Shown in pieces: positions 27,158 to 30,113 of a DNA stretch of 64,000 nt. The stretch covers positions 1 to 64,000 of the forward strand of contig CACZZB010000007.1 of assembly GCA_902785555.1 (NCBI GenBank), written 5' to 3'. The translations under genes and the position numbers were made by a program. Position 1 is the stretch's first letter; every line of letters begins with the position of its first letter. The notes under the pieces are model-generated. The model made no database searches, was not told the origin of the DNA, and was given only the letters and a program-made list of their open reading frames with translations. Source of the stretch: an uncultured Ruminococcus sp. (lineage in GTDB: Bacteria; Bacillota; Clostridia; Oscillospirales; Acutalibacteraceae).

Positions 27158-28453
27158 TCAACGAACAGTTACACTGAAATATTTTTTGGAAACAGTACCT
27201 TCAATATCCCTGACCTTAATGCAGATGTCATAATTTGTGTTCGTATATGGTCTGACAAGAATTTCATTGTTTTCTTTGTATCCCTGTCTTACAGTCCATT
27301 CGGATTCAGAGGCTTTTTTGTAAAGCACAGCATACTCATAAGCTCCTATACCACCTGTGGCAGAGCCTTTCACAGTCACGGTATTACCCTTTCTGATAAC
27401 AGTTTCCGAAATATCAGAAGTATTTTTAAGTTTCTCATTAACGTGTATCTCAAAAAATCTTTTTACAATTTTTCCGGTACCATCCTTGACTTTCACACAA
27501 ACGTCATAATCTGTCGCTTTTGCCGGCTTTACAGCAATAATATCATTCGTACTGTAATTTTGTTTGACTGTCCATTTTTTGTCTGATTTTTTCTTGTAGA
27601 GTACAGCATACGTATAGTTTCCGTCACCACCCTGTGCATATCCGTATACATTCAAAGTATTGCCAATTCGGATAATATCCGTTGACAAATTTGAATCATT
27701 TTCAAGCTCGGTAACGTATCTGCCCTTTTCTCCCAAAAGAGAATATGTACTTTTGATATACACTTCACCGTTATCGTTTTCATGAAACATTACCACATCT
27801 ACAAATTTATCGGGATTGGGAACAACAGCATACGTTTTTCCAAGAACAGCGTAATCAGTACCCTTATCGGTGTGCTTTTCACCCAAAAATGCAACAGGCA
27901 TACAACCCCATCCATCATACAATTCAAAAAATTTGTCATACACTTTCTGTACATTATCAGGTAAGCCGCAGCCACTAATATCGCTTGGTATTTCTGTACC
28001 GCCACAAACGGGATATTCCGGCAAAGTATATGAATTATTATATTCATAATCCTCCAAATCAAAATTCTCTATATAACTGATACGAGCCGGTTTTTGCACA
28101 TTGCTTCCAATCGGATTGGGGTCATAAACAATTACTTTTTTAAGTGAAATATTGCCATTGCCTGTCTGCTCCTGACAAATCAAATCATAATTATAGCCTG
28201 CTACAACCTGTATGCCATAGTATGCAATTGGAGTGAGAGGAAAACCATTATAGTTCTGCATTGCCTCATCAAATGCTCTTTGTACATAATAAGGCAAACA
28301 AGAACTTTCTGTTTTTACATCACTGACATACCACGAGTCATAAAGATTGATTGTTGCAGATGCAGATATACAACTGCATGAAATGACCGGTACGGTTATT
28401 GCCGCTGATAACAATACTGCAAATATTCTTTTCAAAAGCTTATTTTTATACAT
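27158..28453 (-). CDS. Secreted protein with two Ig-like repeats
   Basis: 431 residues. Signal peptide at 1-33 with a probable cut after SASA. Residues about 34-250 are a unique domain. Two repeats of about 85 residues follow (from about 258 and 345), each with RIGNTLNVYG or RKGNTVTVKG, GGDGNYTYAVLYKK or GGIGAYEYAVLYKK, and a final D..VKV.D segment. Such triple-Tyr-like or bacterial Ig-like repeats are common in secreted Ruminococcus proteins. No catalytic motif was seen. Confidence 0.72.
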   Translation of the reverse strand: MYKNKLLKRIFAVLLSAAITVPVISCSCISASATINLYDSWYVSDVKTESSCLPYYVQRAFDEAMQNYNGFPLTPIAYYGIQVVAGYNYDLICQEQTGNGNISLKKVIVYDPNPIGSNVQKPARISYIENFDLEDYEYNNSYTLPEYPVCGGTEIPSDISGCGLPDNVQKVYDKFFELYDGWGCMPVAFLGEKHTDKGTDYAVLGKTYAVVPNPDKFVDVVMFHENDNGEVYIKSTYSLLGEKGRYVTELENDSNLSTDIIRIGNTLNVYGYAQGGDGNYTYAVLYKKKSDKKWTVKQNYSTNDIIAVKPAKATDYDVCVKVKDGTGKIVKRFFEIHVNEKLKNTSDISETVIRKGNTVTVKGSATGGIGAYEYAVLYKKASESEWTVRQGYKENNEILVRPYTNTNYDICIKVRDIEGTVSKKYFSVTVR

Positions 28454-28686
28454 GATAAATGCCCTCTCAAATCTGTTTTTTAATGTATTATACTACATTC
28501 CGTATTTTATTGTTTATATATTATACTACATTTAATCAGATAATAAAAAAATTGTAAAAACATATAATTTTCTGATTCATTTTTTATTTACACCGTCAAT
28601 ACAACTTGTTTCATTTATTTGATATAATAGATATATCATAAAATGAAGCTGAAAATCTTCTGCATTAAACAAATTAAAGAAAGGTT

Positions 28687-29025
28687 GTGTTTATCATAAA
28701 AAGAAAAAGATTTAAGCGAACTATATTGACTTCTGCTATCGTTGGAACATCTTTAAGCATGAGTGGTTGTCTGGGAAATTTAGGCTGTGTATATGGTCCT
28801 CCCCCCGTACAACCCAATAATAACAGCGAAATAACCACACCTTCAAGTCAAGCTGAAAACTTCGACCCGTCTGATAATATTCCGCAAGATGTTTATGGAC
28901 CTCCTGTCGAGGAATCATTTAATGATGAAAGTCAGCTTCCGGATAAAACATCTTCAGAAGAAAACGACTTTGACCCATCCGATGAAATTCCTGCCCTTGT
29001 ATATGGACCTCCATCCGATATGTAA
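28687..29025 (+). CDS. VYGPP-repeat lipoprotein, likely radical-SAM peptide substrate
   Basis: 112 residues from a GTG start; AAAGAAAGG lies only a few nt upstream, so the start is not certain. A basic N-terminus and hydrophobic stretch end in the lipobox LSMSGC. The mature part is acidic and disordered and carries three VYGPP motifs, two in the repeat FDPSD..P..VYGPP. The next gene, 23 nt on, encodes a radical SAM/SPASM protein. I infer a ribosomally made, post-translationally modified lipoprotein, analogous to Bacteroidetes radical-SAM-associated lipoproteins, with VYGPP as the modification site. Confidence 0.68.
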   Translation: MFIIKRKRFKRTILTSAIVGTSLSMSGCLGNLGCVYGPPPVQPNNNSEITTPSSQAENFDPSDNIPQDVYGPPVEESFNDESQLPDKTSSEENDFDPSDEIPALVYGPPSDM

Positions 29026-29048
29026 TTTTATTAACGGAGGTAAATCAG

Positions 29049-30113
29049 GTGGAACAAATCACTAAAATTTCTCAGCTTACCGAGCTGGCAAAATATAAAG
29101 ATAATTTAAGAAAAGAACCTCAACTCAAGTTTCTGTTTTTTGAGCTTACAATGAACTGTAACGAACGATGTCTGCACTGTGGAAGCTACTGCGGAGATAT
29201 TAAATCGGAAGAAATACCCGTACAGAAATATTATAAATTACTCGACAAAGTAAAACAGGACTTTTCTCCTTTGCCTATGCTGTGTATTACAGGCGGAGAG
29301 CCTTTGCTCAGAAAAGATTTTTTTGACATAATGTCATACGCACACAAGCTCGGCTACAAATGGGGTATGACAAGCAACGCAACTCTTATATCAAACGATA
29401 TTGCAAAACGTCTTAAAGAATCAGGTATGAGTACAATATCTGTCAGTATTGACGGTCTTGAAAAAACACATGACAGTTTCCGAAGAACAAACGGCGGATT
29501 CAAAAAAGCTATTGACGGTATAAAAAATCTCCTGAAATATGATTTTTCGGAAGTACAGGTGACTACCGTAGTAACCAAAAAAAACATAGATGAACTTGAT
29601 GACCTTTTTGAACTTATGAAAGAACTTGATGTCGATTCATGGAGAGTAATAAATCTTGAACCTATTGGCAGAGCTCTTTTACTTGACGACTATATGCTCG
29701 ACAAACAGGACTATATCAGAATGTTTGACTTTATACGAACAAAGCGTAATGAAGGATACCCCCTTACATACGGCTGCACACATTATCTTGGTCTTGAATA
29801 TGAAAAAGCTGTAAGAGATTGGTATTTCATTTGTGCCGCCGGAGTATATACTGCAAGCATTATGGCAAACGGAGATATCGGTGCCTGTCTGGATATCGAA
29901 AGACGTTCCGAAACTATACAAGGCAATATACTAAAAGACGATTTTACGGATATATGGAAAAATCGCTTTAGAATATTCCGTACTCCTCTGTATAACAAAA
30001 ATGAAAAATGCAGTCACTGTGACTCAAAATATTTCTGCGGCGGAGGCTCATATCATAGTTGGGATTATTCTAACAATCAGCCGCTTGTATGCTTTAAAGA
30101 CATGATTTTCTGA
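29049..30113 (+). CDS. Radical SAM/SPASM peptide maturase
   Basis: 354 residues. The radical SAM cluster motif CNERCLHC is at residues 37-44, with the TGGEPLLR motif near 90. The C-terminal SPASM-like region carries the Cys set FICAAG, GACLD, KCSHCDSKYFC and VCF, able to bind auxiliary Fe-S clusters. The GTG at 29049 is preceded by ACGGAGG. By position it should modify the VYGPP lipoprotein, perhaps by C-C or C-O crosslinking as in other SPASM maturases. No transporter or protease gene is adjacent. Confidence 0.82.
   Translation: MEQITKISQLTELAKYKDNLRKEPQLKFLFFELTMNCNERCLHCGSYCGDIKSEEIPVQKYYKLLDKVKQDFSPLPMLCITGGEPLLRKDFFDIMSYAHKLGYKWGMTSNATLISNDIAKRLKESGMSTISVSIDGLEKTHDSFRRTNGGFKKAIDGIKNLLKYDFSEVQVTTVVTKKNIDELDDLFELMKELDVDSWRVINLEPIGRALLLDDYMLDKQDYIRMFDFIRTKRNEGYPLTYGCTHYLGLEYEKAVRDWYFICAAGVYTASIMANGDIGACLDIERRSETIQGNILKDDFTDIWKNRFRIFRTPLYNKNEKCSHCDSKYFCGGGSYHSWDYSNNQPLVCFKDMIF

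Follow-up and report, generated by a model that had tools for sequence, protein, structure and literature searches.

Organization of the locus

The window, the whole 64 000-nucleotide stretch of DNA that was analysed, comes from an uncultured Ruminococcus sp. and carries two adjoining genes on its + strand: a putative substrate lipoprotein gene and, 23 nt downstream by the ORF coordinates, a radical SAM/SPASM enzyme gene (Table 1). An earlier reading made from the letters of this DNA alone (the sequence-only reading) had described a lipobox protein and a radical SAM gene with this spacing, and both ORFs were located as described. GTG 28687 is the sole conventional in-frame start of the lipoprotein ORF. 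Because it follows a Shine–Dalgarno-like AAAGAAAGG by only ∼2 nt, the start codon in this region (window 28680–28700) is uncertain, and a rarer start (ATC or ATA) slightly downstream is possible. A 431-aa exported protein is encoded divergently on the − strand (27158–28453); it contains two alike tandem domains towards the C-terminus, GGDGNYTYAVLYKK and GGIGAYEYAVLYKK, and gave weak Fn3-like matches and nothing stronger in Pfam.

Table 1. Features of the lipoprotein–enzyme pair (window coordinates).
Feature	Position	Strand	Basis
Putative substrate lipoprotein gene, 112 aa	28687..29025	+	ORF
Lipobox Cys C28 (LSMSG-C28), predicted lipidation site	28768..28770	+	Sequence
VYGPP no. 1, residues 35–39, seven residues past the lipobox Cys	28789..28803	+	
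Repeat FDPSDNIPQDVYGPP; holds VYGPP no. 2 (28891–28905, residues 69–73)	28861..28905	+	
Repeat FDPSDEIPALVYGPP; holds VYGPP no. 3 (28999–29013, residues 105–109)	28969..29013	+	
Shine–Dalgarno GGAGG of the enzyme gene	29036..29040	+	Sequence; 8 nt before GTG
Radical SAM/SPASM enzyme gene, 354 aa, GTG start	29049..30113	+	ORF, Pfam, TIGR04133, structure model

The lipoprotein

The lipoprotein is built from a basic N-terminus, a hydrophobic stretch, the lipobox, the segment LGNLGC-VYGPP and two repeats of the form FDPSD-(N/E)-IP-xx-VYGPP, the last VYGPP lying three residues from the C-terminus. The three VYGPP motifs, two of them inside FDPSD..P..VYGPP repeats, were thus correctly noted in the sequence-only reading. 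The protein matched no Pfam or NCBIfam family, and TIGR04134 (cut-off 39.8 bits) gave no match to it up to E = 10. When its residues were shuffled, none of 200 000 shuffles contained even two YGPP. The pattern TAYGGNCCNCC occurs elsewhere in the window's genome only in a RuvB-like Walker A region and an 8-codon fragment; Walker-type YGPPG proteins (e.g. RuvB) were rejected as substrates.

The enzyme

The enzyme matched PF04055 (Radical SAM; E = 1.3e-23) and PF13186 (SPASM; E = 4.1e-8), both over the Pfam thresholds, which bears out its assignment as a SPASM radical SAM enzyme. It is a divergent relative of TIGR04133 (rSAM_w_lipo), its best family, with a full-length match of 281.6 bits that falls short of the curated cut-off of 425 bits; its relatives scored 261–287 bits. 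Next came two families of haem enzymes, AhbD (172 bits) and NirJ2 (160 bits); MftC scored 128 bits. The score with TIGR04103, which we take to be the PlpX-type family, was 110.6 bits, below those three and not reaching the cut-off of 725 bits.

In an alignment of 31 sequences the radical SAM CxxxCxxC cysteines (Cys37, Cys41 and Cys44), seven cysteines of the SPASM region (Cys243, Cys262, Cys280, Cys321, Cys324, Cys330 and Cys348) and two histidines (His245 and His336) are invariant. In place of the fourth Cys in the SPASM motif Cx2Cx5Cx3C there is Ser or Ala, so that, compared with the cysteine layout of standard SPASM enzymes, auxiliary cluster I would be left with three Cys and a site that is open or filled by His.

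The structure model is of high confidence (pLDDT 92.4, pTM 0.90) and opens with one helix at the place where an RRE domain is found in several maturases. Its fold matched SuiB, anSME, CteB, ChlB, SkfB and PqqE about equally (Z 23–27; Foldseek, VIA-align); since all SPASM enzymes match to a similar degree, the fold is uninformative on chemistry.

Conservation of the pair

One genome per species (84 980 species) and 300 further genomes of the same family were scanned, which yielded 67 further enzyme loci. A close set was defined as the 59 loci, the window included, with an enzyme identity of at least 53%. A lack of conserved pairing elsewhere would have refuted the sequence-only reading, but the pairing does recur, in many gut Clostridia: one to four YGPP proteins are encoded upstream on the same strand at 57 of the 59 close loci, and class-wide sampling added eleven YGPP pairs from several families, part of which may repeat species already counted. 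Among the YGPP ORFs within 2.6 kb of the enzyme, 85 of 86 lie upstream on the same strand. At one exception (L062) a zinc-ribbon-like membrane protein with CVYGSPE is encoded immediately upstream of the enzyme; at the other (L070) no partner was found beside it. A scan of viral contigs returned distant enzymes only (identity of 28% or less).

Besides the substrates, no neighbour was common to more than a minority of loci. The commonest, an upstream gene that from its sequence is presumably uvrA, was present in 12 loci and the remaining ones in six or fewer. Among the neighbours of these loci no protease, exporter, leader, RRE partner or haem gene was common, and no PlpY-like RRE partner recurred in the adjacent genes. 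The unit is therefore taken to consist of two genes. These comparisons strongly support an enzyme–substrate pair in which the substrate is a surface lipoprotein; this part of the sequence-only reading stands, on the strength of the conserved pairing, the invariance of the motif and the lack of any other shared neighbour.

The term RiPP fares less well if it is taken to mean a peptide product released by cleavage. A putative precursor gene does lie beside that of a radical SAM maturase, as in RaS-RiPP loci, but neither a conserved protease or exporter nor a leader–core layout was found, and the substrates look like whole exported proteins, many of 100–330 aa and some with dockerin domains, which makes that part of the earlier claim doubtful.

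The YGPP motif

The 85 substrate proteins have little in common beyond the motif, of which they contain 230 copies versus 0.28 expected after shuffling. Its Tyr and Gly are essentially invariant over these 230 motifs: the residue before GPP is Tyr in 230 of 232 cases and Phe or Trp in none, and the variable position of Y-x-PP is Gly in 230 of 231. The position before Tyr is occupied by V, L or I in 240 of 279 YG. As many as 147 distinct DNA spellings encode the 213 copies of (V/L/I)YGPP, and selection therefore acts on the protein.

A hydrophobic N-terminal stretch is present in 80 of the 85 substrates and, by a crude rule, a lipobox-like Cys in 50. In 28 an X-Tyr-Gly is found no more than 12 residues from the lipobox Cys (e.g. 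NGCVYGPPP, SACAYGPPE and ACGMYGPPQ), and the Tyr of the final site is within ten residues of the C-terminus in 42 of the 85.

Substrate classes and enzyme relatives

A dockerin-like stretch was found in a substrate at 27 loci (L020, L029, L045, L064, L066 and 22 others). All five such substrates analysed with Pfam contain a type I dockerin above threshold, which sits between the YGPP sites; the loci are mostly labelled Ruminococcus, R. flavefaciens included. This suggests that the dockerin-bearing substrates are modified proteins attached to the cellulosome. The window's own genome (G000) has a single clear dockerin match (L102; contig C3, 72732–72890), and the dockerin-type substrate therefore belongs to relatives and not to the window organism.

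The next enzyme clade (∼43–48% identity) has zinc-ribbon proteins as neighbours, and these carry CIYGPMP, CIYGPRP or CIYGPPP. The zinc-ribbon proteins of L010, L016, L017 and L062, with CIYGPxP or CVYGSPE, have no obvious signal peptide. Long-form enzymes (∼520–550 aa; L011–L015) carry a C-terminal extension that gave no Pfam match where tested, and small proteins with LYGCPN or YYGCPN are encoded near two of them (L011 and L013).

In Parabacteroides and Treponema plasmid records true TIGR04133 enzymes adjoin TIGR04134 lipoproteins, and a Phocaeicola plasmid record contains an unannotated TIGR04133 relative with a TIGR04134 lipoprotein alongside. The TIGR04134 partners of these three genera carry CEYGSP, CEYGTP and SCYGMP adjoining the lipobox. 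A clostridial lipoprotein (L100) that reads AGCGMYGPPP passed the TIGR04134 cut-off of 39.8 bits with 52.3 bits, and its enzyme scored 372 bits with TIGR04133 (cut-off 425 bits); judged by sequence, this locus is a bridge between the clostridial YGPP pairs and the TIGR04133/TIGR04134 pairs. The TIGR04134 profile gave no match above cut-off over 398 Bacillota genomes.

In the phylogenetic tree the enzymes of the YGPP and the zinc-ribbon loci group together with support (100/98), as does the L100 enzyme with TIGR04133 (97/98). With PlpX-like, MftC and TIGR04053 rows included, the window enzyme was not joined to the PlpX-like enzymes, and the sister SPASM family was not settled, as long branches meet there. 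Three rows were lost from the tree, and the placement of an Agathobacter row (L084) looks unreliable.

The sole feature common to the lipoproteins, dockerin proteins, zinc-ribbon proteins and TIGR04134 partners is X-Tyr-Gly, usually followed by x-Pro. Because it is constant over all of these partners, this motif is very probably the site that is modified.

Comparison with named systems

The window pair resembles the TIGR04133/TIGR04134 pairs of Bacteroidota and Treponema in its adjoining SPASM enzyme and lipoprotein genes, in an X-Tyr-Gly-x-Pro right after the lipobox of the partner lipoproteins and, by eye, in the same seven SPASM-region Cys positions and the G-x-x-x-H pattern of the enzyme. 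It differs in that TIGR04134 proteins have one site followed by a folded domain, whereas the window lipoprotein is a disordered acidic chain with repeated YGPP. Because the window proteins fall outside both curated families, sequence comparison places the pair as a variant of this named kind rather than a member. In the literature searched, outside which a 2022 splicease survey lay, no description of the function of the TIGR04133/TIGR04134 pair was found, and no paper connecting YGPP with a radical SAM enzyme and a lipoprotein; an earlier description in that survey is possible.

The spliceotide system PlpX/PlpY (IPR026482) likewise combines a radical SAM/SPASM enzyme with recognition of X-Tyr-Gly and several sites per precursor, and an adjacent substrate with X-Tyr-Gly is present here in the form of three VYG. 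It differs in its nif11/nitrile-hydratase-type leader and RRE partner, neither of which is found next door to the window pair, and the window substrates are exported lipoproteins. In a separate Bacillota genome a leader-type precursor with TTAYGIARP (L103:1136–1480, +) lies ahead of a PlpX-like enzyme that scores 221 bits with TIGR04103; that locus is a candidate spliceotide cluster.

Proposed reaction and alternatives

Taken as a whole, the best explanation of the locus is a two-gene modification unit acting on the lipoprotein; together with the reaction proposed below, it is given a probability of about 0.5. The radical SAM/SPASM enzyme would modify the X-Tyr-Gly sites of the lipoprotein encoded upstream of it while that protein is still in the cytoplasm; the modified lipoprotein would then leave by the usual Sec/lipoprotein pathway and be presented at the cell surface.

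In spliceotides it is PlpXY that removes tyramine from X-Tyr-Gly, and one of its tags, PIRPLYGLPI, is of the XYGxP form (PMC10533398, PMC11002830); splicease products have been reported to inhibit proteases, and the reaction to be widespread among bacteria (PMC10373908, PMC11117315). By analogy, a tyramine equivalent would be excised from Tyr with a mass change of −135.08 Da (−135.0757 Da) per site, and the product would be an α-keto-β-amino (ketoamide) homologue of Val adjoining Gly-Pro-Pro. We rate this excision at the X-Tyr-Gly sites as about an even chance. The low score with TIGR04103, the absence of PlpY next door, the different cysteine set and a tree that leaves the enzyme apart from the PlpX-like ones count against it.

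The sequence-only reading had instead proposed that the enzyme crosslinks Tyr or Val with a loss of 2 Da. In this cyclophane- or mycofactocin-like reaction the motif Tyr would be joined as Val-Tyr or Tyr-Pro through a C–C, C–O or C–N bond. MftC is a SPASM enzyme that joins Val and Tyr (PMC8326336), its HMM score is similar and lies above that of TIGR04103, and V, L or I does usually precede the Tyr of the sites described above. Among solved structures the closest folds are those of SPASM maturases, the residue-crosslinking SuiB among them (Z 27.1, r.m.s.d. 3.1, 312 residues; Foldseek, VIA-align), although the window enzyme lacks the N-terminal RRE domain of the SuiB type and the identity is ∼20%. 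MftC acts together with the chaperone MftB on the C-terminus of a short peptide and needs a C-terminal Tyr, whereas the tyrosines of the YGPP sites occur repeatedly, for the most part within the chain, and have Gly-Pro-Pro after them. Moreover, a crosslink would call for a second conserved residue, but none is constant in the way that Gly is: the residue before Tyr may be V, L, I, A, E, M or T, and that after Gly is P, S, T, V, M, A or C among the relatives. Because Gly is invariant and these two positions vary, tyramine excision is preferred; the motif fits the X-Tyr-Gly splicease rule better, and the crosslink is considered unlikely.

A different change at Tyr-Gly, namely epimerization, Cα oxidation or cleavage, hydroxylation or radical methylation, would also be compatible with the invariance of the two residues, as would any chemistry aimed at the dipeptide; it lacks specific support and is regarded as improbable, and no B12-binding domain was found in the enzyme with Pfam. 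Still less probable is a reading in which the enzyme acts elsewhere, for example on a haem intermediate, and the YGPP protein is no substrate at all, its motif serving in structure, binding or ribosome pausing. The rank of AhbD and NirJ2 directly after TIGR04133 would agree with this, and Pro-Pro can slow ribosomes, but several unrelated types of partner protein share only X-Tyr-Gly and the neighbours have no haem gene in common. An upstream ribosome-stalling leader was rejected as a general rule because the partner gene can also follow that of the enzyme (L082, L097 and L017) and many relatives lack Pro-Pro.

If tyramine excision does take place, electrophilic ketoamides on the surface might plausibly inhibit or trap proteases or bind a partner, a role for the modified lipoprotein that is put forward here as a weak suggestion. 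The full proposal, that in gut Clostridia, cellulosome-forming Ruminococcus included, a stand-alone radical SAM enzyme excises tyramine from repeated X-Tyr-Gly-Pro-Pro sites, be it in exported lipoproteins, in dockerin proteins or in zinc-ribbon proteins, and so places ketoamides on the surface or the cellulosome as covalent protease traps or binding sites, is a tentative one.

Biological implications

X-Tyr-Gly-x-Pro is one motif that unites uncharacterized radical SAM enzymes of Bacillota, Bacteroidota and Spirochaetota, and the small two-gene pairs, with their diagnostic mass, are suited to co-expression. Of most interest are the finding that lipoproteins, dockerin proteins and zinc-ribbon proteins all share this rule and the possible radical modification of the dockerin-bearing ones. 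If the proposal is true, surface proteins of gut bacteria, those with dockerins among them, would bear radical-made residues, and radical chemistry of the kind that makes natural products would reach the cell envelope and perhaps the cellulosome as well.
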